Positions 4,015-38,000 of a stretch of DNA of 44,811 bases are shown in pieces (position 1 is the stretch's first letter; each line of letters begins with the position of its first letter). The translations under genes were made by a program, and so were the position numbers. The notes under the pieces are model-generated. The model was given only the letters and a program-made list of their open reading frames with translations. It made no database searches and had not been told where the DNA came from. Origin of the DNA: Vicinamibacteria bacterium (GTDB lineage: Bacteria; Acidobacteriota; Vicinamibacteria; Fen-336); assembly GCA_025923995.1 (NCBI GenBank), contig JAICEW010000009.1:1-44811 (forward strand), read 5' to 3'.

Positions 4015-5553
4015 TTACAAGCCTTGCGCTTTCTTCAACCGCGCGGCCGTCAGGCTCTGGCGGACCGCCTCGTATCCTGCCCAGGGGTCCTCCCCGCGAT
4101 CGCGCAGGCGCCGCTCCACGTCGGCCAGGACGACCGCGCCGCCGCCGGCCAGCGCCGGCAGCTCGTCCCACGAGACGGGCATGGACACCGGCGCCGTCGG
4201 CCGCGACCGCGTCGAGAAGGCGGAGACCGACGTGCTTCCCCGATGGTTCCGGGCGTAGTCGATCAGGATGCGGCCGGGCCGCTTGGCCTTGGCCATGGCG
4301 GTCAGGAAGGCGTCCGGCTGCTCGCGCTCCAGGCCCTCGGACACCGCGCGTGAGAACTCGAGGCACTCAGCCCAGCCCGCACGGGGACGGAGAGGCACGA
4401 CGACGTGCGCGCCCTTGCCGCCCGTCGTCTTCACGAAGGAGGCGAGACCCATGCGCTCGAGCCGTTCGCGAAGGATGGCCGCCGCCGCCGCCACCCGCGC
4501 CCAGGCCACGCCGGGGCCGGGGTCCAGGTCGAACACGATGCGGTCGGGCCGTTCCAGGTCGTCCGCGCGCGCGTTCCACGTGTGCAGCTCGAGCACGTTC
4601 ATCTGGACCAGCCCCACGAGACCCTCGACCGAGTCCACCGTGAGGTAGTCGGCCCGCTTCGTCTTCTCCTGGATCGAGACGCGCCGCAGCGCGCGCGGCG
4701 CCCACGCTCCGGCGTGCTTGACGAAGAAGCACTCGCGGCCCGCGCCCTCGGGACACCGGACGAGGGTCAGGGGCCGGCCCTCCAGGTGCGGGAGGATGCG
4801 CGGAGCGATGCGCTCGTAGTAGCGGGCCACGTCCTCCTTGGTCTGGCCCGAGCGCGCGAACACGACGCGCTCCGGGTGCGTCAGGCGGACGCCGGCCACC
4901 GATGCGGCGTCCGCCTCGCGCCGGGACGCGCGACGCGGGACCCCGCGCTCCGCGCGGGCCGAGGTCCAGGTGCGATCGCGGTCCCTCGCGATCTGCTCCA
5001 GGTCGCGACCGCTGTCGACGCTCAAGGGCCTGGCCATCGTGACCTCCTGTCCCGCGCGCCGGATCGACGCGCCGTCCTTCTCCTTGACGAGGAGCCACTC
5101 GCGCTGCTTGGCCCGGCCGTCGCGCCCCCGCCGCAGGCGGACGAGCGCCCAGCCGCCACGCAGCTTCTCGCCGTGCAGCGTGAACACCAGCTTGCCTTCG
5201 AGGAGCCCGCGACGCGGGTCGTCGCGCGGCTCCCAGGTCCCGCGATCCCACAGCAGCACGGTTCCGCCGCCGTACTCGCCCTCCGGGATCACGCCTTCGA
5301 AGCCGCCGTACTCGATCGGATGGTCCTCCGTCTCGACGGCCAGGCGCTTGTCCGAAGGATCGAACGTCGGACCCTTCGGTACAGCCCAACTCTTCAAGAC
5401 GCCATCGAGCTCGAGGCGGAAGTCGTAGTGCAGGCGCGTCGCGGCGTGCTTCTGGATGACGTACGACCACCCTTCCGCGCGCGGCGTGTCGTCTCCCGCG
5501 GGCTCGGGCGTCGCCCGGAAGTCCCTCTTGCGTCGGTACTCACGCAGCGACAT
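4015..5553 (-). CDS. ligD: LigD-type end-joining protein: 3'-phosphoesterase plus polymerase, no ligase domain
   Basis: 512 residues. The N-terminal phosphoesterase domain (about 25-190) shows H36 and HYDFRLELDG from H42, plus EDHPIEYGGFEG and PEGEYGGGTV. The C-terminal primase-like polymerase domain (about 225-500) has VFDLDPGPG (the metal-binding DxD), KTTGGKGAHVVVPL and DYARNHRGSTSVSAFSTR. These trim and fill ends in bacterial non-homologous end joining with Ku, which is encoded at 22343. The ATP-dependent ligase domain found in many LigD proteins is absent: the two domains are joined by a short basic linker, and the ORF stays open. A separate ligase must act elsewhere. I chose the ATG at 5553 (MSLREY, like other LigD starts); a reading from 5589 would overlap the promoter. 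Confidence 0.9.
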   Translation of the reverse strand: MSLREYRRKRDFRATPEPAGDDTPRAEGWSYVIQKHAATRLHYDFRLELDGVLKSWAVPKGPTFDPSDKRLAVETEDHPIEYGGFEGVIPEGEYGGGTVLLWDRGTWEPRDDPRRGLLEGKLVFTLHGEKLRGGWALVRLRRGRDGRAKQREWLLVKEKDGASIRRAGQEVTMARPLSVDSGRDLEQIARDRDRTWTSARAERGVPRRASRREADAASVAGVRLTHPERVVFARSGQTKEDVARYYERIAPRILPHLEGRPLTLVRCPEGAGRECFFVKHAGAWAPRALRRVSIQEKTKRADYLTVDSVEGLVGLVQMNVLELHTWNARADDLERPDRIVFDLDPGPGVAWARVAAAAAILRERLERMGLASFVKTTGGKGAHVVVPLRPRAGWAECLEFSRAVSEGLEREQPDAFLTAMAKAKRPGRILIDYARNHRGSTSVSAFSTRSRPTAPVSMPVSWDELPALAGGGAVVLADVERRLRDRGEDPWAGYEAVRQSLTAARLKKAQGL

Positions 5554-5568
5554 GGCACCTCTCGACTC

Positions 5569-5583
5569 GCAAGCGCCGTGCCA
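5569..5583 (-). promoter_or_regulatory. Sigma-54-like promoter of ligD
   Basis: The minus strand reads TGGCACGGCGCTTGC, a near-perfect -24/-12 element. The predicted start (about 5557) lies only a few bases before the ATG, inside the GAGAGG ribosome site, so the leader would be unusually short. That spacing is the one argument against it. The divergent site for the next gene starts 23 bases away. Confidence 0.55.
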
Positions 5584-5606
5584 TTGCACACGTTGCGGTC
5601 GCGCAG

Positions 5607-10779: not shown

Positions 10780-11448
10780 GTGAAGGACCGCATCTTCATC
10801 CTCTCGCCCGCCTCCACCAGCGGGGAGCGCGCGCGCATCCTGATGCGTGACGAGGCTCGCTTCGACCTCGCTCAGCGGCTGCGCAGCCCTTCGGGCGCGC
10901 CGCTGGGCGAGGTCTTTTCGTTCCTCAGCGGGCTGTACTTCCGCGGCAAGCTCACCTACGCGACGGCTTTCGCCCGGCCGCCCGCCGCGCTGCCCGCCGG
11001 CGTGTTCGTCGTCACGCCCTGCCAGGGCCTGGTCCCCCCCCAGCAGAACGTGGACCTGGCGGGCCTGCGCCGCTATGCCTCGGTCCCGATCGCCACGACC
11101 GAGCCGCGCTATCGCACGCCCCTGCTGCGCGACCTCACGTGGCTCACGGGCATCGCGCCCGACGCCGAGATCGTGCTGCTGGGGAGCATCGCGACGGACA
11201 AGTACGTCGAGCCCCTGCAGGCCGTGTTCGGCGAGCGGGTGCTGCTGCCGGCGGACTTCGCGGGCCGCGGCGACATGAGCCGCGGGGGCCTGCTCCTCCG
11301 CTGCGTCGAGGAGGGGCGCGAGCTCACGTACGTGCCGGTCGCCGGCGCCCTCCGCCACGGGCCCCGCCCGCAGCGCCTCGAGCCGCGGGCCGGGATCCTG
11401 AAGAGGGCGATCGACCGGTCGCGACGGTCCAGGTCGGATTCGTCGTAG
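10780..11448 (+). CDS. Conserved hypothetical protein, no recognised domain
   Basis: 222 residues, GTG start, weak ribosome site. It begins RIFILSPASTSGERARILM and has an alpha/beta look, with TPCQGLVPPQQNVDL, VPIATTEPRYRTPLLRDL and AEIVLLGSIATDKYVEPL as the most structured segments. There is no signal peptide or membrane segment. The composition suggests a soluble cytoplasmic protein with a Rossmann-like core. I recall similar uncharacterised proteins but cannot name a function. It is convergent to the small gene at 11459, 10 bases away. Confidence 0.7.
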   Translation: MKDRIFILSPASTSGERARILMRDEARFDLAQRLRSPSGAPLGEVFSFLSGLYFRGKLTYATAFARPPAALPAGVFVVTPCQGLVPPQQNVDLAGLRRYASVPIATTEPRYRTPLLRDLTWLTGIAPDAEIVLLGSIATDKYVEPLQAVFGERVLLPADFAGRGDMSRGGLLLRCVEEGRELTYVPVAGALRHGPRPQRLEPRAGILKRAIDRSRRSRSDSS

Positions 11449-11458
11449 CGGCCTGACC

Positions 11459-11602
11459 TCAGTTCGCGCGCCGGCGGCGGAACCGGCGTGTGCCCTGGTT
11501 GCCCATCGCGCCGACCGCGCCCGGGCCCTTGGGCCGGGTCTCCTCCGGCTCGGAGGTGCTCACACGCGTCTGCTTCTTGCGGCGGATCGGCTTGCCGGCC
11601 AT
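11459..11602 (-). CDS. Small basic protein downstream of the TamB-Omp85 gene
   Basis: 47 residues: a lysine/arginine-rich start (MAGKPIRRKKQTRVST), an acidic/proline middle and a C-terminus ending RRFRRRRAN. AAGGAGG precedes the ATG by about 7 bases, and the start lies 11 bases past the stop of the large TamB-Omp85 gene, so it shares that transcript. No family was recognised. The basic C-terminus could bind RNA or membrane surfaces (speculative). Confidence 0.6.
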   Translation of the reverse strand: MAGKPIRRKKQTRVSTSEPEETRPKGPGAVGAMGNQGTRRFRRRRAN

Positions 11603-11613
11603 CGCGTCCTCCT

Positions 11614-14600
11614 TCAGAAAGCCTGTCCCAGGCTGAAGAACCACTGGAATGCGCGGTCGTCCCGCCGCTTGTTCAGGGGGAAGCCGAAGTCGATGCGGAG
11701 CAGGCCCACCGGCGAGTCGTAGCGCAGCCCCGCCCCGATCGAATGGCGCAGCTTGAAGGTCCACAGGTCCTTCGCGTCGGCGTAGACGTTGCCGCCGTCG
11801 TAGAACGCGGCCAGGCCGAGCCCGCTCGGGTGCCGGTAGCGGATCTCCTGGTTGAGGATGAGCATCGCCTCGCCGCCGCGCGAGACGCCCTGGATCGGCC
11901 CGGGCGGCCCCACGGAATCGGTGGCGAAGCCGCGCAGGCTGTTGGCGCCGCCGGCGCGGAAGCCCTCCGTCGACCGCCCGAAGAGCGCGGTCTGGAACGC
12001 GATCTGCTCGTCCAGCCCGGCCGCCCAGCCGATGCGGTACGCCTGGGCCCACGTCAGCCACTCGCCGACGGGGCGCGCCAGGAACGCCTGGCCGGTGCCC
12101 TTGAAGAACTGGAAGTCGGAGCCCAGCAGAGTGGGACCCACCTCCAGGCTGAGGCTCAGGAACATGCCCTCGCGCGCGTCGAGCGTGCTGTCGCGCGTCT
12201 CGCGCAGGGCCGAGGCCTGGATGCTGGAGAGCGTCTGCTCGAAGTGCCGGTGCACGCTCTCGATCGTCTTGAAGCGGTAACCCAGCAGGAAGTCCCACTT
12301 GAGCGGCGCCCGCAGGGAGTGCTGGATCTCGAAGCCCTGCCGCCGCTCCGTGTCCGGGATGGTGGCCGGCGTCAGCACGGGCCCCTCCTCGCTGAGCAGC
12401 AGGAAGTCCTCCTCCTCCCGGAACAGCGCCCCCGTGATCTCGGCCGACTTCCCCAGCGCCGGCAGGTGCAGCGAGCCGCGCGCCTCGCGCACGTCGGCAC
12501 CGCCGCGGAACCGCGCTCCGATCGCCAGCGCCGTGCCCGCGATGTTGCCGACCTCGGCGTCCACCAGCCCCGAGAACCCCTCCTCCGGGTTGTGCCGGAC
12601 GTCGTACTGCAGCGTGTACGGGCCCTGCTCCCGCACCTCCACGGTGATGGTCGCGCGCTCGTCGGAGGAGGCCGTGGCCGCGGCGCGCCGGAAGACGTCG
12701 AGGTCCAGCAGGCGCCGCTCCAGCAGCGTGAGCTTGCGCGGGTCGAGCGGGTCTCCCGCCTTGAACGGGAGGACGCGGCGGACGGTGGCCTCCCGGGTGC
12801 GCCGCAGCCCCTTGAACACCACGTCCCCCACGAACTGCTGCGGGCCCTCGACGATGCGCAGCACCAGGTCCAGGTCCGTCTCCTGCGGCTCCAGCCGCGG
12901 CTGGACGCGCACGCCCGCGAACCCGCGCTCGAGGTAGTACGCGCGGATGCGCTGCACCGCGTCCTCGACCGGCATCGGGTCGTAGGGGTGGCCGGTCTCG
13001 ATGCGCGCGGCGTCGGCCAGCTCCGTCTCGTCCCGGGTGGCGCCTTCGAAGCGCACGTCCCCCAGCAGGGCCTGCGGACCTTCCTCGACCGCGACGTCGA
13101 TCGTGACGGACGAGCGGTCCTCCGACTCGCTCACCCGCGGCAACTCCACGCGGGCCTGCAGGTAGTGGTGCTCGCGGTAGAGCGCGACGATCCGCTCGCG
13201 CGCCTCCCGCGGATCGCCCAGCAGGGCCGCCTCGCCGCCCGCGGCGGCCACCAGCTGCCCGGAGGACAGCGCCGCCGCTCCGGTGAAGCGCACCTCGCGC
13301 ACGACGGCCGGATCGCCGAGCGCGACCTGGAACACGATGGTGCGCGCGGCCTGGTTTCCGCGGACCTCCGTCGTCACGCGCGCCTTCACGTACCCGCGCC
13401 GGTGCGCTTCCTCCAGCAGGCGGGCGCGGCCGTTCTCGATCGCTTCCTCCTCGAAGAAGGACCGCAGGATGTCGGCCGTGAGGTCCGGCGGAGTCGCCAT
13501 CCCCTCCACCATCCACGCGTAGCGCGGCCCGGGCCGCGCCTCGATCACGCCGACCGTGCCTTCGAGGTCCGCGGACGCGAGGGCCTCCAGGTAGCCGGCG
13601 GAGTGCATCAGGTCCTGCACCGCCTCGGACTCGTCCTGGAGGCGCCAGAAGGTGGCGCGGCTGCCTTCCTCCACGCGCAGGCGCCGGCGCGCGGCGTCTT
13701 GCAGCTCCGCCGGAACGCCCGCGAGGCGCACCTCGGTCAGCTCGACCGAGTCGTCGGCGGCGCGGCGACGCCCTCCGCCGGGCCCCCTGCGGTCGCCCCC
13801 CCAGCGCCAGCGCTGGCCGACGCCGTAGTTGTACGTTCCGTCGTCCCCGTACTGGATCTTGGCGGAGACCTCGCGGCCGAGCCGGAAGCGGTACTGCCCC
13901 TCGAAGAAGCGGGCCTCGGGGTCGTTGAGCCCCACCGAGTAGATGAGCTTCAGCTGCGGCGTCAGCAGCTTGCCGAACGTGAAGCGCGCGCCGGGGTCGT
14001 CCTCGCGCGCCAGCAGCTGGGGCTGGATGTCCACCTGGTCCAGCCCCAGGTCGCGCAGGCTCCGGGACAGGCCGCGCGTGAGGCGTCCGGCCAGCAGCAC
14101 CGCGGTGTGCTCGCCCGCCGCCCACGCCGCCCCGCTGCCCGAGTCGAGCACGCCCCGGCGGCCGGTCGCGATCAGGCTCGCGATCTCGCGCTCGGAGTAC
14201 GAGGGGTCCGAGCGCAGGTCGAGCGTCGGACGCTCCAGCGGGCCGCTCGCGATGGCGGTCACGCGCACGTCCTCCTCTTCGATCTGGGAGATGACGGTCT
14301 CGGCCGTGATCGCGATCTCGGGATCGAGGGAGCCGTTGTACGTGAGGCTGCCGTTGCGGATCGTGAACTCGCGCGTCTGCAGGAACACCTTGCCGCCCTG
14401 GCGCACGTCCAGCCGGCCGAAGGGCGCGGGATAGCGGGCGTCCCCGCGAATGCGCAGGCGACCGCTCGCCTCCAGCTCCGCCAGGTTGTTGCGTACGATC
14501 ATGGGCCGGTCCGTCACCGCGGTGAGGTCGAGGGCGACCGACTCCAGGAACGGCGAGCGGGTAGCGGGCGGCGGCGGCACGCTGGGGGCCCACAGCGTGT

Positions 14601-17600
14601 TCTCCAGGCGGATGTCCGTGTCGTAGAGCCCCCGCTCGGCGTGCACCTCACCGGCCAGCAGGAGCGATCCCAGGGGGCCCTTGAGGGTCAGGTCCGCGCG
14701 CAGCCGGCTCCGGAAGTCGCGCGGATAGCGCAGCGACACGTCGCGCGCCTGCAGCGTCAGGTCGAGCGGCGTGTCCTGCGCCAGCCCGGCCGAGCCCGAG
14801 GCGGTCAGCGTGCCGCCGCCCCACTCCGCCCGCACGTCCTCGAGGCGGAGCACGCGGCCCTCGAGGACGCCGCGCCCGTTGATGTCGGTGATGGCCTGCG
14901 GGATCTCGCGCAGGCGCAGCGAGCCGTCCGCCAGCGTGACGACGCCTGCCGCGCGCGGAGCGTCGAGCGAGCCGGACACGGCGACGTCGAGGTCGGCGCT
15001 GCCGGCCAGGGCTCCCTGTTCGACGAACGGGGAGAGAGCCCGCAGGTCCAGCCGGCCGCGGCTCGTCCCCTCGACCGCACGCGTCCTCAGGTTCGCGTGG
15101 CCCTGCGTGACCACCTCGCCGCCGTGCGAGCGCACGGTCCAGGGATCGAGGACGACGGCCGCCCCGTCCGCGTGAGCGCGCAGGGCCCCCAGCTCGACCG
15201 CGACGTTCTCGACGCGCAGCGTCGTGGCGGGAGCCTCGAGCGTCCCGCGCGCCTCGCGGGCGGCGGGGCGCGCCTCCAGCGTGAGCCGGGCCGCGAGCGT
15301 CCCGTCCACCGGCACGGACGCGTTGCGCAGCGACGCGAACAGGGCACCCGCGTCCACGTCCCGCACGTCGACCTGGGCGCGCACGAGGTCGGCCGACGGC
15401 GTGTGACCCGCCACGGGCGGCGCGAGCGCCGCCACCGGGGCCTCGCCGGAAACGGTCATCGTCCCACCGGCGACATCCGCCTGCAGGTCGGCGACCGCGA
15501 TGCGGTCGCCGCGCAGCTCGATGCGCCCGGCCGGCAGCGAGAGGAACGGCGCCTCGCCGGGACCGCCCAGCAGCACGTCGGCCACGTCGATCTGCCCGGA
15601 GGCGCGCGGGGCCGCGCGCGTCCCCGTGAGCGCGACGTCCGCCGCGAACGAGCCGGCGACGCGGAAGCGGGGAGGGGCTCCCACGTTCGCCAGGTCGCCC
15701 TGCACTTCGAGCCGTCCCTCGACCGGGTCGTTCGGGCCCAGCCCGGCCGAACCGGACACGCGCACGCGAATCCCTTCGCCCTCCGCGTCCAGCCCGTCGA
15801 TGCGCGCCCGCTGGTCGCGCCAGCCGACCGTGAACGGACGCAGGGCCGATGCGCCCAGGTCGCCGCTCAGCACCTCCGCGGACGCGACCCGTGCGTCGAC
15901 CGTCGCCCGCATCGGGTCGCTCCAGGGCACGCGCACGTCCGCGGACGCGGTGACCGCGCCCTCCAGCGGGCGGCCGGCGGGCATCAGCGGCTGGAGCGGC
16001 GCGAGTGGCGTCTGGGCCAGCTCAAGGCGGGCGGTGGCCTCGCGCGCATCGAACGTCGCGTCTCCCGTGACGTTGAGCGACGGCACCGCCATGCGCGCGG
16101 TCCCGCGTCCGCGCGAGCCGGTCAGGTCCACCGCTGCCGAGCCGATCGCGACGCCATTCCACACGAGGCCCGCGCCGCGCACGGAGCCGCTGCCGCCCAG
16201 GGCGTCGAGCGGCCCGGACGCGCGCAGCTCCGCGTCCACGCGTCCGGTGGCACCGGGCGCGAACGGCGACACGTCGAGGCCCTGGGCGCGAGCCTCCAGG
16301 TCGCGGACGATGCTTCCGTCGGTCGCGATCCGCACGTCGCCCGTGCCGCCCAATCCGCGCGTCGCGAGCGTGGCGTCGACGCGTGTGCCGCTGCTCCGCA
16401 GCTGGCCGTCGACCGAGACCTCCTGCGGCCCCGTCGCCGTCTGGAGCGCGACCGTGCCCGTCACCGTGCCCCTGACGTCCGGCGGCAACGCGCCCTGCGC
16501 ATCGCCCTGCGCGTTCAGGTGTGCCGTTCTCCAGCCGGCCGCGCCGGGCGCGAGCGGCTGCGACAGCGTCAGCTCCCCGCGCCACTCGAGCCCCACGCGC
16601 GGGCCCTCGACTTCGACACGGCCGCCGCCCTGCGCTCGCACCTGGTGCGTGAGGGTTCCTTCGCGGCCCGCGGCGCCCAGGTCGAAGGCGACCTGCAGCG
16701 GACCGTCGAGAGGACCTTCCGCGTTCACGCGGCCGGAGACGCGGCTGGCCGGGAGGCCCTCGGGCGCCACCGATGCGGGCAGGCGCCGCGTGTCGATGCC
16801 CTCGGCACGCGCGTGCGCGGTCACGCGACCGCCGACGAGGCTCGCGTCGCCGGTGACGGCCCCACCGAGGGTGCGCGCGGTCCAGCTCGCGCGCGAGCCC
16901 GCCGTCTCGTAGGCGAAGCGGGCGTCCACGTGGTCGACGCGCACGTCGCTCACGCGCAGGTCCTGGCCGGTCGCCGAGCCGGAGACGGCGGGCTCGGCCA
17001 GCGTGCCCAGGGCGGTTCCCTCCGCGTTCACGAGCCCCGCGATCGCCGGCGGCCGCGGTGCGAACCCGCCCAGCTCCTGGAGATCGAGGGCCGCGCTCCA
17101 CGTGACGTCGAGCGCGCCCGGGTCGCCCGTCTCGATGCGGCCCGAGCCGCGTGCGCGCGATCGCGCGGTGCCGGCCTCGAGGGACTCGACGTCGACGTCG
17201 AACATGGGCGAGACCGCCCCGCGGAAGGACACGGGACCCAGCGGCACCTGGGGCTCTCGCGACCACACGCCACCGGCGGCGGTCGCCACCAACGTGCCCT
17301 CGCCGATGCTGCCGCTCGCGTCCACGTCGTCGAAGCGCAGGGGTCCGCCCAGCCGCTCGTCCTCGTAGGTGATCGTCGCGTCGGTCACGCGCAGCGACCC
17401 GATGCGCACGGCCGTTCGTTCGGACGCTCCGGACTCGGGCGGCGGCCGCAACGTGATGCGGGCACCGTCGACCTCGAGCGAGCGCAGGTCGATCGTGCCC
17501 CTGAGCAGCATCGCCATCGTCGCCCGCACGCGGGCGTGCGGAGCCTCGATGCGGTACGCCGGCCCCTCGAGCGTCAGCTCGCTGATCTCCGCCGAGAGGG

Positions 17601-17808
17601 ACCCCGGGACCACGTGCAGCGCGCCGACGCGGCTGCGGGGACCGACGGCCTCGCGCATCCGCCGCTCGACCAGGAGCCGGACGCGCTCCTGCGGGAACCA
17701 CCCGGCGGCCAGCAGGCCGAGCCCGAGGAGCAGGCAGAGTGCGGCCACGGCCAGGACCCGCCGGGGCCGCAGCCAGGACCGGCTGACACGTCCTCCGTTC
17801 TCGACCAT
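11614..17808 (-). CDS. TamB-Omp85 fusion: AsmA/TamB-like bridge, five POTRA-like repeats and an outer-membrane barrel in one chain
   Basis: 2064 residues in one open frame. Residues 17-37 are an uncleaved inner-membrane anchor. Residues ~40-1345 are TamB-like, with repeated beta-rich AsmA/TamB units. The conserved TamB C-terminal domain (about 1040-1345) shows DRPMIVRNNLAELEASGRLR, REFTIRNGSLTYNGSLDPEI, SEREIASLIATGR and GLDQVDIQPQLL. From ~1350 come five POTRA-like repeats (starting near 1350, 1432, 1501, 1580 and 1658; for example VREVRFTGA, LLGDVRFEG and VGDVVFKGL). From ~1727 an Omp85 barrel follows, with the loop-6 motif SLRGF near 1956 and a C-terminus ending in aromatic Phe. TamB and TamA are normally separate proteins that link the two membranes and act in outer-membrane protein or phospholipid delivery; here they are joined covalently. 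Each part has near-normal length. Five POTRAs resemble BamA more than TamA (three). Confidence 0.88.
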   Translation of the reverse strand: MVENGGRVSRSWLRPRRVLAVAALCLLLGLGLLAAGWFPQERVRLLVERRMREAVGPRSRVGALHVVPGSLSAEISELTLEGPAYRIEAPHARVRATMAMLLRGTIDLRSLEVDGARITLRPPPESGASERTAVRIGSLRVTDATITYEDERLGGPLRFDDVDASGSIGEGTLVATAAGGVWSREPQVPLGPVSFRGAVSPMFDVDVESLEAGTARSRARGSGRIETGDPGALDVTWSAALDLQELGGFAPRPPAIAGLVNAEGTALGTLAEPAVSGSATGQDLRVSDVRVDHVDARFAYETAGSRASWTARTLGGAVTGDASLVGGRVTAHARAEGIDTRRLPASVAPEGLPASRVSGRVNAEGPLDGPLQVAFDLGAAGREGTLTHQVRAQGGGRVEVEGPRVGLEWRGELTLSQPLAPGAAGWRTAHLNAQGDAQGALPPDVRGTVTGTVALQTATGPQEVSVDGQLRSSGTRVDATLATRGLGGTGDVRIATDGSIVRDLEARAQGLDVSPFAPGATGRVDAELRASGPLDALGGSGSVRGAGLVWNGVAIGSAAVDLTGSRGRGTARMAVPSLNVTGDATFDAREATARLELAQTPLAPLQPLMPAGRPLEGAVTASADVRVPWSDPMRATVDARVASAEVLSGDLGASALRPFTVGWRDQRARIDGLDAEGEGIRVRVSGSAGLGPNDPVEGRLEVQGDLANVGAPPRFRVAGSFAADVALTGTRAAPRASGQIDVADVLLGGPGEAPFLSLPAGRIELRGDRIAVADLQADVAGGTMTVSGEAPVAALAPPVAGHTPSADLVRAQVDVRDVDAGALFASLRNASVPVDGTLAARLTLEARPAAREARGTLEAPATTLRVENVAVELGALRAHADGAAVVLDPWTVRSHGGEVVTQGHANLRTRAVEGTSRGRLDLRALSPFVEQGALAGSADLDVAVSGSLDAPRAAGVVTLADGSLRLREIPQAITDINGRGVLEGRVLRLEDVRAEWGGGTLTASGSAGLAQDTPLDLTLQARDVSLRYPRDFRSRLRADLTLKGPLGSLLLAGEVHAERGLYDTDIRLENTLWAPSVPPPPATRSPFLESVALDLTAVTDRPMIVRNNLAELEASGRLRIRGDARYPAPFGRLDVRQGGKVFLQTREFTIRNGSLTYNGSLDPEIAITAETVISQIEEEDVRVTAIASGPLERPTLDLRSDPSYSEREIASLIATGRRGVLDSGSGAAWAAGEHTAVLLAGRLTRGLSRSLRDLGLDQVDIQPQLLAREDDPGARFTFGKLLTPQLKLIYSVGLNDPEARFFEGQYRFRLGREVSAKIQYGDDGTYNYGVGQRWRWGGDRRGPGGGRRRAADDSVELTEVRLAGVPAELQDAARRRLRVEEGSRATFWRLQDESEAVQDLMHSAGYLEALASADLEGTVGVIEARPGPRYAWMVEGMATPPDLTADILRSFFEEEAIENGRARLLEEAHRRGYVKARVTTEVRGNQAARTIVFQVALGDPAVVREVRFTGAAALSSGQLVAAAGGEAALLGDPREARERIVALYREHHYLQARVELPRVSESEDRSSVTIDVAVEEGPQALLGDVRFEGATRDETELADAARIETGHPYDPMPVEDAVQRIRAYYLERGFAGVRVQPRLEPQETDLDLVLRIVEGPQQFVGDVVFKGLRRTREATVRRVLPFKAGDPLDPRKLTLLERRLLDLDVFRRAAATASSDERATITVEVREQGPYTLQYDVRHNPEEGFSGLVDAEVGNIAGTALAIGARFRGGADVREARGSLHLPALGKSAEITGALFREEEDFLLLSEEGPVLTPATIPDTERRQGFEIQHSLRAPLKWDFLLGYRFKTIESVHRHFEQTLSSIQASALRETRDSTLDAREGMFLSLSLEVGPTLLGSDFQFFKGTGQAFLARPVGEWLTWAQAYRIGWAAGLDEQIAFQTALFGRSTEGFRAGGANSLRGFATDSVGPPGPIQGVSRGGEAMLILNQEIRYRHPSGLGLAAFYDGGNVYADAKDLWTFKLRHSIGAGLRYDSPVGLLRIDFGFPLNKRRDDRAFQWFFSLGQAF

Positions 17809-17852
17809 GACTCACCCGGAGCGGTTCGCCCGACGTGCGCCATGCGAATCGT

Positions 17853-17867
17853 GCAACTCCGGTGCCA
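17853..17867 (-). promoter_or_regulatory. Sigma-54 promoter of the TamB-Omp85 gene
   Basis: The minus strand reads TGGCACCGGAGTTGC followed by A, a full consensus match. The predicted start is near 17841, 33 bases before the ATG at 17808. Confidence 0.8.
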
Positions 17868-17875
17868 CGATCTGA

Positions 17876-17890
17876 TGGCACCGGAGTTGC
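17876..17890 (+). promoter_or_regulatory. Sigma-54 promoter of the Gfo/Idh/MocA oxidoreductase gene
   Basis: TGGCACCGGAGTTGC followed by A is identical in sequence to the divergent site. The predicted start near 17902 is followed by AGGGAGG and the ATG at 17925. Confidence 0.8.
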
Positions 17891-17924
17891 ACCAATGACG
17901 TCGGACAAAGGCAGGGAGGACCCG

Positions 17925-19094
17925 ATGGCACGCACCCGGACGACCCGAGCCTCCACGAAATCAGCACGATCCCGCACCTCGAAGCAGCCGCGCGGCCGCG
18001 TCCGTTACGCGGTCGTCGGACAGGGTTACATCTCGCAGATCGCTGTCCTCCCGGCCTTTGCCAACGCGCGCCGCAACAGCGAGCTGACGGCGCTCGTCTC
18101 GGACGATCCCCACAAGCTGGAGCTGCTGGGCCGCCGCTATCGGGTCAAGCACCTCTACCGGTACGAGGACTTCGACGCCTGTCTCGCCAGCGGCGAAGTC
18201 GACGCGGTCTTCATCGCGCTGCCCAACCACCTGCACCACGCCTACACGCTGCGGGCGGCGCGCGCGGGCAAACACGTCCTGTGCGAGAAGCCCCTGGCGG
18301 TCACCGAGGACGAGTGCCGCGAGATGATCGACGAGGCGGAGCGCTACGGGGTGCAGCTCATGGTCGCCTACCGGCTCCACTTCGAGCGGGCCAACCTCAA
18401 GGCGGTGCAGATCGCGCGCGCGGGCCGGCTGGGCGGCCTGCGCACGTTCAACTCGCTGTTCTGCATGCAGGTCGAGGACGGCAACATCCGCCTGCAGGCG
18501 GCCGCCGGCGGCGGCACCCTGTACGACATCGGCATCTACTGCATCAACGCGGCACGCCACCTCTTCGGAGCGGAGCCGGTCGAGGTGGTGGGCTTCGCGG
18601 GCAACAACGGAGAGGAGCGCTTCCGCGAGGTGGACGAGATGACCAGCGCGATCCTGCGCTTCCCCGGCGACCGGCTGGCCAGCTTCACCTGCAGCTTCGG
18701 AGCGGCGGACGCGTCGGCGTTCGACCTCGTCGGCACCAAGGGCTCCCTCCGCCTGGAGAGCCCGTACAGCTTCGCCGAGGACATCACGCAGCGGCTCAAG
18801 ATCGGCGAGCGCACGACGGAGCAGGTGTTCCCCGCGCGCGACCAGTTCGCGCCCGAGCTGCTGTACTTCTCGGATTGCATCCGGGAGCGCCGCAAGCCGG
18901 AGCCTTCCGGCGAGGAGGGCTGGGCGGACGTCCGGGTGATCCGCGCGCTGCTCGCCTCCATCGAGCTGCGGCGCCCGGTCGCCCTCGAGCCGCTCGACCG
19001 GCGGCGGCAGCCGACCCTCGAGCAGGAGATCCACCGGCCGCCGATCGAGGAGCCCGAGCTGGTGGGCGCGCGCAAGCCCTCTCCCGGCGACTGA
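17925..19094 (+). CDS. Gfo/Idh/MocA-family NAD(P)-dependent oxidoreductase
   Basis: 389 residues. After a basic, Thr/Ser-rich leader of about 24 residues comes the Rossmann fold (VRYAVVGQGYISQIAVLPAF), the family motif GKHVLCEKPLAVT with the EKP lysine, and a C-terminal beta-sheet domain (GGGTLYDIGIYCINAARHLFG). The closest pattern is glucose-fructose oxidoreductase-like enzymes acting on sugars or sugar derivatives. There is no signal peptide, although the basic Thr/Ser-rich leader is unusual. I prefer the ATG at 17925 (AGGGAGG 5 bases before) over the in-frame ATG at 17895, which has no ribosome site. The substrate is unknown. It diverges from the TamB-Omp85 gene through twin sigma-54 promoters. 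Confidence 0.85.
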   Translation: MARTRTTRASTKSARSRTSKQPRGRVRYAVVGQGYISQIAVLPAFANARRNSELTALVSDDPHKLELLGRRYRVKHLYRYEDFDACLASGEVDAVFIALPNHLHHAYTLRAARAGKHVLCEKPLAVTEDECREMIDEAERYGVQLMVAYRLHFERANLKAVQIARAGRLGGLRTFNSLFCMQVEDGNIRLQAAAGGGTLYDIGIYCINAARHLFGAEPVEVVGFAGNNGEERFREVDEMTSAILRFPGDRLASFTCSFGAADASAFDLVGTKGSLRLESPYSFAEDITQRLKIGERTTEQVFPARDQFAPELLYFSDCIRERRKPEPSGEEGWADVRVIRALLASIELRRPVALEPLDRRRQPTLEQEIHRPPIEEPELVGARKPSPGD

Positions 19095-22185: not shown

Positions 22186-22346
22186 CCTCGCGGCAGGTAC
22201 CGGTGCGCGGCGAGGATCCGCAGAAGCCGGGCGAGCCCACCCGGCGCCGTCATCCGCCGGGGCCCGAGCCGCCCGCCGCTCCAGCGGCCGGCCGGGACGA
22301 GCCTCCTGACGACGACGGCCGCCGGCCGGGAGGTGGCGGGCGCTAG
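22182..22346 (+). CDS. Small Pro/Arg-rich disordered protein
   Basis: 54 residues beginning MTSRQVPVRGEDPQKPGEP, then Pro, Arg, Asp and Gly to the end. It should be disordered. Its ATG overlaps the preceding TGA (ATGA), and its stop overlaps the end of the convergent ku gene by 4 bases. No family was recognised. Support is context only. Confidence 0.4.
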   Translation: MTSRQVPVRGEDPQKPGEPTRRRHPPGPEPPAAPAAGRDEPPDDDGRRPGGGGR

Positions 22347-23224
22347 CTGGCCTTCCGCTCCCGCCGTGCCCGGTCGGAGCGGGCGGAGGGTCGTCCCTTC
22401 TGCGACTCCAGGCTGGCCTTGAGGGCGGCCATGAGGTCAACCACCTCCGCCTTCGGGCGCGCCTCCTCCGGCGCCTCGATGGCGAGGCCGCGTGACTTGC
22501 GCGCGATCAGCTTGCGGACGCGCTTGCGCACCTCGTCCTCGTAGAGCGAGGGGTCGAAGCGGTCGCGGGCGACGCTGTCGATCAACCGCTTGGCCAGCTC
22601 GACCTCGGCGGGACGGGCCGCCGCACGGGGCGCGGCCACGGGCGCGCGGACCTCGTCCTGGTGGAAGAGCTGGTGCATGACGAGCCTGCCCTCCGACGCG
22701 CGCAGCGCGACCAGGTAGTCCTTGCCGCGCGCCGCGTAGCGCGCGATCGCGAGCAGCTTCTGGTCGGCCATCGCGTCCGCCAGCAGCGCGTAGGCCTTGG
22801 CGCCCCCGGCATCGGGCCCGAGGTAGTAGTGGCGCTCGATGTAGACGGGCGACAGCGAGTCCTCGGGCACGAACTCCGCGATCTCGATCCCGCGGCTGGC
22901 CTGCGCGTCGAGCGCGCGCAGCTCGTCGTCGGTCAGGACCACGTAGCGTCCCTTCGACACCTCGAAGCCCTTGACCATCTCGGAGCGCGGCACGACCGTG
23001 CCCTCCTTGACGCAGACGTACTGCTGCTTGAGCCGCGAGCGGTCCTTCTCGTGCAGCATGTGGAAGGACAGCCCTCCCGACACCGACGCGGTCGGGTAGA
23101 GGCGCACCGGGACGGTCACCAGACCGAAGGTGATGGTGGCGGTGGCCAGGGCGCGCGGCCCGCGGTCCGCTTCGTCGTCGTTGCGTGGGGCGGTCCTGCG
23201 GGTGGCCTTCCGTTTGGCGCTCAT
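22343..23224 (-). CDS. ku: Ku homodimer, non-homologous end joining
   Basis: 293 residues, the usual size for bacterial Ku. The family pattern is clear: TITFGLVTVPVRLYPTAS, FHMLHEKDRSRLKQQYVCV, MVKGFEVSKGRYVVLTDDEL, IEIAEFVPEDSLSPVYIERH and YYLGPDAGGAKAYALLADAM. A Lys/Arg-rich tail ends in RRERKAS; such tails aid DNA binding. Ku holds broken ends and recruits LigD (encoded here at 4015). The ATG overlaps the stop of the YihY gene by 4 bases, so ku is the last gene of the operon that begins at 25967. Confidence 0.95.
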   Translation of the reverse strand: MSAKRKATRRTAPRNDDEADRGPRALATATITFGLVTVPVRLYPTASVSGGLSFHMLHEKDRSRLKQQYVCVKEGTVVPRSEMVKGFEVSKGRYVVLTDDELRALDAQASRGIEIAEFVPEDSLSPVYIERHYYLGPDAGGAKAYALLADAMADQKLLAIARYAARGKDYLVALRASEGRLVMHQLFHQDEVRAPVAAPRAAARPAEVELAKRLIDSVARDRFDPSLYEDEVRKRVRKLIARKSRGLAIEAPEEARPKAEVVDLMAALKASLESQKGRPSARSDRARRERKAS

Positions 23225-32518: not shown

Positions 32519-34732
32519 CTAGGGGGGCGACGTCGCAAGGCGCTCGTGCGCCCAACGCTGCAGGGACGCGTCCAGGGGAGGCAGCAGCCTTCCCCGCTCG
32601 CTTCCGAGCGCGCTGTAGGGCGGCCGCCGCGCGGCGAGACGGAGCTCCGCCGTCGTGCAGGCGTGGACGCGGTCGGGATCGAAGCCCGCGAGGGCGGCGG
32701 CGTCGCGCGCGAAGTCCGCCCAGCTCACGGCGGACGGGTTGGCGAGATGCCAGAGTCCCTCCTCGCCGTCCACCAGGAGGTCGAGGGAGGCCTCGACCAG
32801 GTCCGGCACGTACGTGGGGGAAACGATCAGGTCCGACGCCGCCTTGAAGCGCGCGCCGCGCCGGAGCGCACGCACCATCAGGGAGAGGAAGTTGTGCTCG
32901 TCCGCCGGCCCGAAGAACGCGCTCGTCCGGACGATGAGGGCGCTGGGCAGGCGCGCGGTGACGGCGGTCTCGGCGCGCGCCTTGCTCGCGCCGTAGACGC
33001 CGAGCGGACCCACCTGCGCGCTCTCGGTATACGGCCGCCTCCGCTCGCCGTCGAAGACGAGGTCGGAGGAGAAGGTGAGCAGGCGGACCCCGCGCTCGCG
33101 GCACGCGGACGCCAGCACCGCGGGCCCGACCAGGTTCTCTCGATAGCAGCGCTGCGGGTCCGTCTCGGCCTCGTCCACGCGCACGTACCCCGCGCCGTTC
33201 ACCAGCGCCCACGGGTCGTATCGCGCGATGGCGGCGGTCACGCTGGCGGCGTCGGCGACGTCGAGCTCGCTGCGGCCGAGCAGGTGGTGGGCGATGCCGC
33301 GCGCGGCGCACGCGCGAGCGAAGGCCCGCGCGAGCGTCCCCCCCGCTCCGGTGATGAGCACCGGCCGCGCGGGCGCGTCCAGGCGGCCCGTGCCCGCCGC
33401 CCGCGCGCCGACCGGGGGGTAGAGCAGGCGCGCGTCGTCGCGCCGCCACCAGCCGGGCGACGTCAGCAGCGGGTGCGCGTGTGCGCCGCGTGACGCCAGG
33501 TCGCGCACCATGCGGGCGAGCGCCGTCGGGCGCGGTCGGCCGCCGCGCAGGTCGAACACGCCGGGCTCGTAGTGGCCCGCGCGGCGCGTCACCTGGACGT
33601 TCCAGTCCCACGAGCCGAGCAGCGACCAGGCCGTCACCGCACGCACGTCGATGCCCTCCTCGCGCGCGGCGGCGGCGGCATCCCACGCCTCCTGCAGCCA
33701 CCGCAGCTGGTCCTCGCGCGTCGCCCCCGCCTGCACCTCGGTGATGGCGAGCGGGCGGCCGTAGCGTCGGTGCAGCTGGCGCAGGATGGCCCGGTGGCCC
33801 AGGATGCCCGCTCGCCAGGCCCGCACCGCCTCGACGTCGGCGTATCCCCGGCGGCCGTTCCCGCCGTGTGTCGCGGCCGGGTAACGGTGTGTGCGCTCGT
33901 CGAGCAGGCGATCGCTCGTCAGGTAGTAGTTGACGCCGATCACGTCCGGCGGCGGCTGGCTCCCGAACCAGGACAGCTCGGCCGCCGTCGCGCCCGCGTC
34001 GAGGAGGTGCGACCACAGCGCATGACGGCGGCCCATGCGCCCGCACAACAGGTCGAGGCTCAGCAGGCGGCGCTGGTTCTCGTAGCGCGCCTGGCCCCGC
34101 AGCGCCCGCGTGCTGTACGTCCGCCCGAAGTCCTCGGTCAGCACGAGCCGTGCGGTGGGGCTCGTCTCGCGAACCACGCGCATCGCCTCGCCGATCGCGC
34201 GGCACTGCACGAGCAGCGCGCGCACGAACGAGCGCAGGTCGCGGCGGTGCGGGTACCAGAAGCCGTAGAGCGCGCTGAAGCGGGCCGTGGTCAGGGGCTC
34301 GTTGACCGGCGTGTAGTCCTGGACCCACGGGTAGCGTCGGGCGACGGCGCCCGCGAACTCAGCCAGACCGGTGACGAAGGAGTCGTCGAGCAGGCTCGTG
34401 TGCGACGGGCCGCTGCCGTGGTGGACGAGGCCGACGATGGGCCGGATGCCCAGCTCGCGCAGGCGCTCCATGCGCTGGTCGGCCCACGACCAGTCCGCAT
34501 GGGCCGGCCCCCGCGGCGCGATCCGCTCCCACAGAAGCGGGTAGCGGAGCGCCTGTATCCCCAGCGACGCGAAGAGATCGAGGTCGTCGAGGCGGCCGCA
34601 GTGGCCGTTGCGCTCGAGCTGGTCGAAGTAGTCGTCGCCGACCCGGTTGACGGTGCACTCGACGCCGCCCCACATCTCGAGGGACGGCGCGACGAGCGAA
34701 TGGCGTCGGTTGGCGGTGGCGGGCCCGAGCAT
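32519..34732 (-). CDS. Fusion of GH1-like glycosidase and RmlD-like sugar-nucleotide reductase
   Basis: 737 residues with two domains. Residues ~15-420 are GH1/clan-A-like: WERIAPRGPAHADWSWADQR, acid/base Glu in YTPVNEPLTT, and probable nucleophile Glu in LAITEVQAG (usually ITENG). From ~455 on it is an extended short-chain reductase like dTDP-4-dehydrorhamnose reductase: VLITGAGGTLARAFARAC, NGAGYVRVDEAETD, TFSSDLVFDG and YGASKARAE with the YxxxK pair. The two activities have no obvious single pathway; a sugar-modifying role near the glycan genes is inferred. The ATG at 34732 has no clear ribosome site, and a slightly later start is possible. It diverges from the cyclic glucan synthase gene. 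Confidence 0.85.
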   Translation of the reverse strand: MLGPATANRRHSLVAPSLEMWGGVECTVNRVGDDYFDQLERNGHCGRLDDLDLFASLGIQALRYPLLWERIAPRGPAHADWSWADQRMERLRELGIRPIVGLVHHGSGPSHTSLLDDSFVTGLAEFAGAVARRYPWVQDYTPVNEPLTTARFSALYGFWYPHRRDLRSFVRALLVQCRAIGEAMRVVRETSPTARLVLTEDFGRTYSTRALRGQARYENQRRLLSLDLLCGRMGRRHALWSHLLDAGATAAELSWFGSQPPPDVIGVNYYLTSDRLLDERTHRYPAATHGGNGRRGYADVEAVRAWRAGILGHRAILRQLHRRYGRPLAITEVQAGATREDQLRWLQEAWDAAAAAREEGIDVRAVTAWSLLGSWDWNVQVTRRAGHYEPGVFDLRGGRPRPTALARMVRDLASRGAHAHPLLTSPGWWRRDDARLLYPPVGARAAGTGRLDAPARPVLITGAGGTLARAFARACAARGIAHHLLGRSELDVADAASVTAAIARYDPWALVNGAGYVRVDEAETDPQRCYRENLVGPAVLASACRERGVRLLTFSSDLVFDGERRRPYTESAQVGPLGVYGASKARAETAVTARLPSALIVRTSAFFGPADEHNFLSLMVRALRRGARFKAASDLIVSPTYVPDLVEASLDLLVDGEEGLWHLANPSAVSWADFARDAAALAGFDPDRVHACTTAELRLAARRPPYSALGSERGRLLPPLDASLQRWAHERLATSPP

Positions 34733-35058: not shown

Positions 35059-38000
35059 GTGGGGATGGACACCAAGAACCCCAGCACCGAAGCGTTGTTG
35101 AGCGTCGAAAAGCTCGAGGAGCGGGCGCGGTCCCTGGCCGCCTCGCAGGCGGGCGTGCGTCGCCGCTTCGTGCGCCCGGGCCACCTGCGCCGCCTCGAAG
35201 CCGACGTGGAGCGCCTGCGCGAGGCGTACCGGCTCATCGCGGAGGACGTGCACGAGGGCCGCCCCATCGCGCCGGCCGCCGAGTGGGTGCTCGACAACTT
35301 CCACCTGATCGAGGCCGAGGCCCGCAACGTCCAGCGCGACCTGCCGCGCACGTACTACCGGCAGCTCCCCCGCCTGGCGGGCGACGAGCGATTGTCGCGG
35401 GTGGAGTCCCTCGCGGAAGACCTGCTGGCGCACACCGACGCGCGCCTCGACGCCGACCGGCTGACCCGCTTCCTGTCCGCCTATCAGCACATCGCGCCCC
35501 TCACCATCGGCGAGCTGTGGGCCTGGCCCAGCGCGCTCAAGCTCGCGCTGGTGGCGGCCCTGCGGAGCACCGCGGACAAGATCGTGTCGGCGCGGCGGGC
35601 GCGCGCCCGCGCCGTCGCGGTGCTGGCGCGTCTGGACGCCGGCGACGAGCCCCCCGCGCTGCCGGGTGGCGCGCTGGACGCCGCCTTCGTCGTGCACCTG
35701 GTGCAGCACCTCCGCGAGTACGGGGCGGGCGCGTCGTCGCTGCGCACCGCGCTGGAGGAGAGGCTGCGCGCGCAGGGCCTCACGGTCGAGGACCTGATCC
35801 GGGGCGAGACCCGGCGCCAGGCGCGGGAGCAGGTCTCGGTCGCGAACGCGGTCACCAGCCTCCGCCTGACGGCGACGCTCGACTGGTCTGCGCTGGTGGA
35901 GCGCGTCAGCCTGGTCGAGCAGGTCCTGCAGCGCGACCCGGCGGGCGTCCACGGCCGCATGGACTTCCTGAGCCGCGACCGCTACCGGCAGGCCGTCGAG
36001 GACCTGGCGGACCCCACGGGCGAGAGCCAGCAGCGCGTCGCGCTGGCCGCGGTGGAGCGGGCGCGGCAGGCGGTCGAGAAGGAGGCCGCGGACGAGCGGA
36101 CGCACCACGTCGGGCACTACCTGATCGGCCGGGGACGCTGGGAGTTCGAGCGTCACCTGGGCGTCCGGCCGCACCTGTGGCGCCGCGTCCGGCGCTTCGG
36201 CTTCCGCCACGCCACCGCCCTCTTCCTCTGGAGCATCGCGCTGCCGACGCTGCTGGCCGCGCTGGCGGCCGCCGCCTACGCGCGATCCGCCGGCGCGTCG
36301 CCCGCGCTGGCCTGGGTCGCGGCGCTGCTCACGCTGCTGCCCGCGTCCGAGCTGGTCACGACCCTGGTGCAACGGGTGGCGACGGCGCTGGTGCACCCCC
36401 GCCGCCTCCCGCGGCTCGACCTGCGCGGCGGGGTGCCGCCCACCGCGCGCACGATGGTGGTCGTCCCCACCATCCTGGACAGCGTCGAGCGGGCCAGGGA
36501 GATGGTCGAGCACCTCGAGGTCCAGGCGATCGGCAACCTGGATCCGCACTTCCACTTCGCGCTGCTGTCGGACTTCGCGGACGCCGACACCGCGGACCGC
36601 CCCGAGGATGCGCCCATCCTGGCCGCGGCGCGCGAAGGCATCGAGGAGCTCAACCAGCGCTACGGCGACTCCGTCCGCTTCTTCCTGTTCCACCGCCGCC
36701 GGCAGTGGAACTCCGGCGAAGGCCTCTACATGGGCTGGGAGCGCAAGCGCGGGAAGATCGAGGAGTTCAACCGGCTGCTGCGCGGCGCGCTCGACACCAG
36801 CTACACGGTTCAGGTCGGCGACCTGTCGGTGCTCCCGCAGGTCCGCTACTGCCTCACGCTCGACAGCGACACGCGCCTGCCCCGCGACGTGGCGCGCCAG
36901 CTGGTCGGCATCCTGACGCATCCGCTGAACCGGCCGCGCTTCGACCCGCAGGCGGGGCGCGTGACCGCGGGCTACGGCATCCTGCAGCCCCGGGTGAGCG
37001 TCACGCTGGCGAGCGCGGCCGGGTCCCTCTTCGCGCGCACGTACGCGGGCCACACCGGAGTCGACCCCTACACGACCGCGGTCTCCGACGTGTACCAGGA
37101 CGTGTTCGGCGAGGGCATCTTCACCGGCAAGGGCCTGTTCGACGTCGACGCGTTCGCGGTCGCGCTGCACGGACGCGTGCCGGAGAACGCGCTCCTGTCC
37201 CACGACCTGTTCGAGGGCCTGTTCGCGCGCGCGGCCCTCGTCTCGGACCTGGAGCTGGTCGACGACTACCCCTCGACCGTCCTCGCCCACGCGCGCCGCC
37301 AGCGGCGCTGGGTCCGGGGCGACTGGCAGATCCTGCTCTGGCTGCTCCCCTGGGTGCCGGCGCGCGAGGGCTGGACGCGCAACACGCTGCCCGCCATCTC
37401 GCGCTTCAAGATCTTCGACAACCTGCGCCGCAGCCTGATCGCGCCCGGCCTGCTCGCCCTGCTGGCGGCCGCGTGGACCGTCCTGCCCGGCCGCGTGAAC
37501 GCGTGGACGGGCGCCGTGCTGGCGGTGCTCGGAGCCCCTGCGCTGATCGAGGTGCTGCGCGGCCTGCGCGGCCCGCGGGCGCACCAGACGCTCGGCAGCT
37601 TCCTGCGCGGGTCCTGGGAGGAGGCGCGCACCGCCCTGGCCCGCGCCTCACTCGACGTCTCGCTGCTCGCGTACCGCGCGTGGGAGATGCTGCACGCGAT
37701 CGTGCTGACGCTGGTGCGGATGCTGATCACCCAGCGCCGGCTGCTGGAGTGGGAGACGGCGGCCGCCGCGTCGGCGCGCGCGGCGGGCCTCATCGGGGGC
37801 AAGGGGCTGCGCGTGTTCGTCGTCGAGATGGCGGCCAGCCCGGCGACCGCGCTGCTGCTGGCGCCGGCGGTGGCCCTGGCGCGGCCGTCCGCCCTGCCGA
37901 TCGCCTCCGTCTTCCTCCTGCTGTGGCTGGCCGCGCCCGCGCTGGCGCTGGTGCTGAGCCGGCCGGTCCGCCCCCGCCGCTTCCACCTGGGCGAGGAGGA

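Follow-up and report, generated by a model that had tools for sequence, protein, structure and literature searches.

A gene fusion that joins TamB to an Omp85 barrel in one chain is widespread in Acidobacteriota

Here we describe a gene that encodes TamB and an Omp85 outer-membrane protein as one chain of 2064 residues, and we find that it belongs to a widespread and apparently old family of fused paralogues in the Acidobacteriota. The gene lies in a stretch of 44,811 nucleotides from a Vicinamibacteria bacterium (contig JAICEW010000009.1 of assembly GCA_025923995.1, positions 1 to 44,811; hereafter the window), for which an initial annotation, made from the letters alone, had proposed a single TamB-Omp85 frame. 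This frame is stop-free on the minus strand from 17808 to 11614, with coordinates, strand and length all exact, and profile searches, suggested there as a check, matched all three domain types far over their cut-offs: Pfam TamB (PF04357) at residues 997-1323 (2.7e-47, 162.3 bits against a curated cut-off of 22.4), Pfam POTRA in four stretches (2.2e-29) and Pfam Omp85 (PF01103) at residues 1851-2064 (2.8e-32, 113 bits against 24). The G+C content at the three codon positions (0.77/0.53/0.95) is like that of other real genes of this genome. An antisense open frame of 2136 codons (11488-17898, plus strand) covers the whole fused gene; it fails on codon-position G+C, every profile match sits on the minus strand, and we judge it to be a by-product of high G+C content and a trap for automatic gene callers.

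The predicted structure agrees with this domain content. Two AlphaFold2 runs, with alignments of fused homologues only, together span the chain. The model of residues 1-1059 (mean predicted local distance difference test score, pLDDT, 88) has a helix (residues 15-34), then an amphipathic one (40-54) and after it a continuous array of β-strands, which across the two models extends to about residue 1200, as expected of the signal anchor and β-rich rod of a TamB, while the model of residues 1020-2064 (mean pLDDT 79) contains the final rod strands, helices, the terminal strands of TamB, five POTRAs and a 16-strand barrel. Each part that the initial annotation had named is therefore recovered: the N-terminal anchor, about 1300 residues of TamB with its conserved C-terminal domain, five POTRA-like repeats and a 16-strand barrel with the SLRGF motif, whose R and G are invariant in 32 fused homologues, so that the barrel strands, the motif and the POTRAs that characterise the Omp85 superfamily are all present. 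In the rod strands, hydrophobic and polar residues alternate far more than in shuffled strands (z = 8.0), and the solved folds closest to the rod are those of ApoB100 and of LPD-3, a lipid-bridge protein; their E-values are significant and their template-modelling (TM) scores low (0.10-0.18), as is expected for long flexible rods. For residues 1020-2064 the top fold matches are BamA chains; in a sequence-profile search of solved structures, the relatives among the matches listed cover the Omp85 half only, and the best of them is again BamA. The order of parts encoded in the sequence would run from inner membrane through periplasm to outer membrane, as had been suggested.

The junction shows how the two halves are joined. 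Fused chains keep TamB through its last strand, the point at which unfused TamBs stop (…DVRVRHAF and similar); the unfused sisters mostly stop at the TamB domain with an aromatic residue, an ending that the fused TamB does not have, as it continues into a linker and the Omp85 half. In the window gene the last TamB strand stops near residue 1336 and POTRA1 starts near 1359, so the joint first placed at 1345-1350 was right to within a few residues. Linkers among the fused loci are 14-50 residues long (median 19), and the best hydropathy ahead of POTRA1 has a median of 0.83, as against 2.23 at the N-termini of unfused Omp85 proteins. The Omp85 half has thus lost its own signal peptide, and only within the fusion could it be exported. 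For the same reason an internal start yielding a separate Omp85 protein is unlikely; L094 is the lone case among about 62 loci with a moderately hydrophobic linker. The POTRA number also differs: with a POTRA profile built here, five repeats were found in 64 of 72 fused loci, while the unfused acidobacterial Omp85 proteins that adjoin a TamB mostly have six or seven. The window gene displays all the features by which we define the fused family, namely the TamB C-terminal domain and Omp85 in one frame, a short linker, no second signal peptide and five POTRAs.

The initial annotation had seen a single case of the fusion. The fusion itself is real, but it is one member of a widespread old paralogous family, and the source genome alone (6.8 Mb in 592 contigs, about 97% complete) holds four TamB loci, of which three are fused. 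Besides the window gene, contig C19 carries a second complete fusion of 2052 amino acids, and contig C291 a third of at least 1830 amino acids which ends at the contig edge; the fourth locus (L020, 10266-16792 on contig C126) is an unfused pair, in which the gene for a TamB of 1299 amino acids comes directly before one for an Omp85 protein that has a signal peptide of its own. BamA is encoded separately on contigs C32, C248 and C57, and the fusion is therefore an addition to the standard parts of the genome and not a replacement. LptD is also present, which suggests an outer membrane of the lipopolysaccharide type, as are AsmA- and MCE-type lipid-transport candidates. Genome-wide there are 17 Omp85-domain matches, many of them outside the BamA and TamB-linked groups.

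Among near relatives TamB is present in 60 of 60 genomes, and many of these have two kinds of TamB frame, a shorter one of about 1300-1450 codons and a longer one of about 2000-2450 codons that also contains an Omp85 match. A survey of 396 Acidobacteriota genomes with a profile of the fused C-terminal half, in which up to two candidates per genome were scored and the hits tallied by hand, found that at least 92 genomes, belonging to 36 family groups, carry a single frame whose match covers both domains; two of these carriers are single-contig assemblies (G114 and G363). From about 100 loci extracted, whose status was settled frame by frame, some 62 distinct loci were confirmed as fused. The fusion is not universal, since family f3 of the class shows only TamB frames of about 1300 codons. 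A further search, with a pattern from nine closer sequences, named as carriers metagenome-assembled genomes of Vicinamibacteria and other Acidobacteria, one Candidatus Aminicenantes and one metagenome-assembled genome labelled Candidatus Schekmanbacteria (L081), where the fused gene is followed by a tetratricopeptide repeat (TPR) gene; transfer, a mislabelled genome and spread past the Acidobacteriota are alternatives for this last case. Two loci (L066 in G013, contig C28, and another on contig C55 of G011) encode a longer fusion, of 2969 codons, with a much longer N-terminal part ahead of the TamB C-terminal domain.

On trees, fused and unfused copies separate. In a tree of the barrel half, built from 62 fused and 26 unfused sequences together with 3 of BamA, two changes account for the fused label, as against 24.8 in shuffles; in a tree of concatenated TamB and Omp85 (66 sequences) one change is enough, with weak support (72). 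This separation indicates that the fused form is an old paralogue with a single origin or a very small number of them, although both trees lack independent rooting and a few origins are still compatible with them. Unfused pairs of Acidobacteriota are arranged with TamB ahead of Omp85, which is the order required for fusion by loss of a stop codon. The family probably arose from a tandem tamB-omp85 pair in which the stop codon of tamB and the signal peptide of Omp85 were lost, with duplication of the fused gene following later.

Although its parts are familiar, the fused protein reaches the cut-off of none of the equivalog models compared. Over residues 1449-2064 it resembles the NCBIfam BamA model (TIGR03303; 221.2 bits), under the equivalog cut-off of 297.15, and it scores far lower against the equivalog models for TamA (NF047950; 99.8 bits, cut-off 625) and for autotransporter assembly TamB (NF047952; 56.8 bits, cut-off 825); Pfam matches to YhdP and DUF748 likewise stay under cut-off. 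The proposal that the Omp85 half is BamA-like rather than TamA-like therefore holds as a statement of resemblance, supported by the five POTRAs typical of BamA, by 221 against 100 bits and by BamA structures and folds, but not as an assignment to BamA, since the score is under the BamA cut-off and BamA is encoded separately elsewhere in the genome.

Four known systems come closest: (i) As in TamA-TamB, an anchored β-taco TamB with terminal amphipathic strands is combined with an Omp85 barrel and POTRAs in the same topological order; here, by contrast, there is one chain and not two, five POTRAs and not three, no second signal peptide, and an Omp85 half closer to BamA. (ii) In the BamA-TamB pairs of Spirochaetes such as Borrelia, of Negativicutes and of Acidobacteria (PMC4494059, PMC5007114, PMC13382580), TamB likewise sits beside a BamA-type Omp85 protein, its presumed working partner, but these are tandem genes for two separate proteins. 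The BamA copies of acidobacterial operons, for which seven POTRAs have been described (Heinz et al. 2015, PMC4494059), have six to seven of them, like the unfused sisters here and unlike the fused chains with five. (iii) TamL-TamB of Bacteroidota shares a TamB with an alternative Omp85 partner, but TamL is a separate lipoprotein; the fused chain scores 51 bits against the TamL cut-off of 400, and its sole cysteine, residue 25, lies within the anchor helix. (iv) AsmA-like and bridge-like lipid-transfer proteins (YhdP, YdbH, LPD-3) also have a long grooved β-rod with an N-terminal membrane anchor. To our knowledge, none of them has an outer-membrane barrel in the same chain. A search of the open-access literature, including main papers on how TAM evolved, on the TamAB structure, on TamL, on Omp85 architectures and on BAM, found no TamB-Omp85 fusion, which is not proof of absence; neither the fusion of the two proteins into one chain nor its wide occurrence appears to have been described there.

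What might such a protein do? We think it probable that it is a one-piece machine resembling the translocation and assembly module (TAM), that is, a covalent bridge for lipid in which a BamA-type barrel would be the port in the outer membrane. In cryo-electron microscopy of TamAB the last TamB strand pairs with strand 1 of TamA, adjacent TamB strands lie inside the barrel and lipid-like density occupies the TamB groove (PMC12800296); a BamA-TamB hybrid barrel has been modelled for Borrelia (PMC13382580), and E. coli has three redundant transporters of phospholipid, TamB among them (PMC8593681). Every structural element of the TamAB and Borrelia hybrid-barrel models is found here in one chain, which favours the covalent bridge. 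The N-terminal helix would anchor the chain in the inner membrane, the β-taco rod with its hydrophobic groove would cross the periplasm, and after the last TamB strand the short linker would lead to the POTRAs and the barrel in the outer membrane. Phospholipid could travel along the groove and leave it next to the barrel, at the outer membrane, and the terminal strands of TamB may pair with the first barrel strand, within one molecule or between two copies. The amphipathic rod, its resemblance to ApoB100 and LPD-3 and the lack of autotransporter-domain proteins count in favour of this proposal, and a bridge of fixed 1:1 stoichiometry, as put forward initially, would follow directly from the single chain. 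For the bolder form of the idea we see roughly even chances: an uncleaved polypeptide integral to both membranes and serving as a permanent lipid conduit, whose TamB strands complete its own or a neighbour's barrel, kept across much of the Acidobacteriota since an early tamB-omp85 duplication.

Several points weigh against a lipid bridge. We infer lipid transport, membrane location and the intactness of the chain in cells, and the rod matches lipid-transfer proteins with TM-scores that are, as said, low. Because the linker is so short, the POTRA arm may have to curl before the terminal strands could pair with the barrel of their own chain; pairing between two copies may be an alternative. The AsmA- and MCE-type candidates could provide other routes for lipid transport in this genome, and protein insertion would suit the intact Omp85 motif and the BamA-type POTRAs just as well. 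The chief rival, which we regard as unlikely but by no means negligible, accordingly makes protein assembly the main job: the rod would guard or hand over unfolded strands of particular outer-membrane proteins, and the BamA-like barrel would insert them. Purified E. coli TAM does assemble outer-membrane proteins in vitro (PMC11341756), the Omp85 half is closest to BamA insertases, the barrel retains the RGF motif and a C-terminal Phe, and many fused genes adjoin a gene for a small exported TPR protein, a candidate partner or chaperone. Yet three separate BamA genes are present, the rod fold resembles lipid carriers, and no autotransporter-domain protein was found in this genome, which weakens a classical TAM role even if TAM substrates range wider.

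The remaining alternatives concern the state of the chain. That it is a precursor exported whole and then cut in the linker, to give separate TamB and Omp85 proteins and an ordinary two-part TAM, we consider improbable: the linkers are variable, Gly/Arg- or Pro-rich and predicted to be disordered, as such a site might be, but more than 60 of them show no conserved cleavage motif, the unfused arrangement in the same genome would leave a cut fusion of little benefit, and the fusion has been retained over a long evolutionary time. Still more doubtful is a cleaved N-terminal helix that would leave the chain in the outer membrane only, with the rod free in the periplasm. An anchor is not told from a signal peptide with certainty by sequence, and small residues follow the hydrophobic core; the N-termini of fused homologues nevertheless fit the uncleaved TamB/AsmA anchor pattern of a hydrophobic helix, then LFPQ or HTPP, then an amphipathic helix. 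Finally, the initial annotation had named a frameshift or misassembly near 13750 as what would overturn the fusion, and the source is indeed a draft genome. The same architecture on two other contigs and at about 62 distinct loci, including those of the single-contig assemblies, and the independent fused homologues in 36 family groups exclude chance and misassembly, and leave an assembly error, a frameshift or two genes read as one with practically no credibility.

Positions of the fused gene and its parts within the window, with the evidence for each.
Feature	Residues	Position	Strand	Evidence
Whole fused tamB-omp85 gene (2064 codons and stop, 219.7 kDa)	1-2064	11614..17808	-	Open reading frame, Pfam, codon composition
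N-terminal membrane-anchor helix (predicted)	15-34	17707..17766	-	Helix in model; hydrophobic N-terminus in fused homologues with intact 5' end
TamB/AsmA-type β-taco rod, strands alternating hydrophobic/polar	60-1201	14206..17631	-	Models, strand amphipathicity, fold search
Conserved TamB C-terminal domain PF04357	997-1323	13840..14820	-	Pfam
Terminal 'pseudosubstrate' strands of TamB, kept to the natural TamB end	1258-1336	13801..14037	-	Model, comparison of TamB ends
Linker GGDRRGPGGGRRRAADDS..., TamB to POTRA1, without hydrophobic segment	1337-1358	13735..13800	-	Junction comparison
POTRA 1	1359-1428	13525..13734	-	Model, POTRA profile
POTRA 2	1429-1500	13309..13524	-	Model, POTRA profile
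POTRA 3	1501-1579	13072..13308	-	Model, POTRA profile
POTRA 4	1580-1656	12841..13071	-	Pfam, model, POTRA profile
POTRA 5	1657-1729	12622..12840	-	Model, POTRA profile
16-strand Omp85 barrel with terminal Phe	1730-2064	11617..12621	-	Pfam, model, alignment, fold search
SLRGF, the conserved (V/L)RGF motif of Omp85 loop 6	1957-1961	11926..11940	-	

The window gene stands alone, divergent to an oxidoreductase gene (17835-19091, plus strand) and convergent with an unannotated gene (10780-11445, plus strand). At about 20 other loci of several families, the gene for the small exported TPR protein lies convergent and just downstream of the fused gene (L032, L035, L037, L038, L040, L048-L050, L052-L055, L057, L076, L079, L081, L088, L091 and L092), within 150 bp in 19 of them, while no such neighbour turned up at any of 27 unfused loci or 3 BamA genes; these counts are rough, many loci having only some 500 bases downstream. 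The TPR protein is a possible partner of the fused protein, or a chaperone, though its gene is not beside the window copy: neither 10780-11445 nor the neighbour at L021 matched the TPR profile once it had been left out of it. Elsewhere in the window, 4018-5589 and 22346-23224 (both minus strand) hold a gene for Ku and one for LigD; the LigD frame matches phosphoesterase and primase-polymerase domains but gave no ligase-domain match. A protein of 2735 amino acids (35059-43263, plus strand) with glucoamylase-like and GH94 domains resembles a cyclic-glucan synthase, and 32522-34732 (minus strand) encodes a GH1-like glycosidase domain fused to an RmlD-type sugar reductase.

That the fusion has been kept in a large phylum argues that permanent 1:1 coupling of TamB to an Omp85 protein is compatible with function. 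This bears on three points: whether the two proteins remain associated throughout their cycle of work, the ratio in which they do so, and whether the system moves lipids or proteins. If the proposal is true, a chain integral to both membranes would surprise specialists, its biochemical role being the part that we deduce. As a single-gene target for structure and genetics, the fused gene makes the question of coupling testable.

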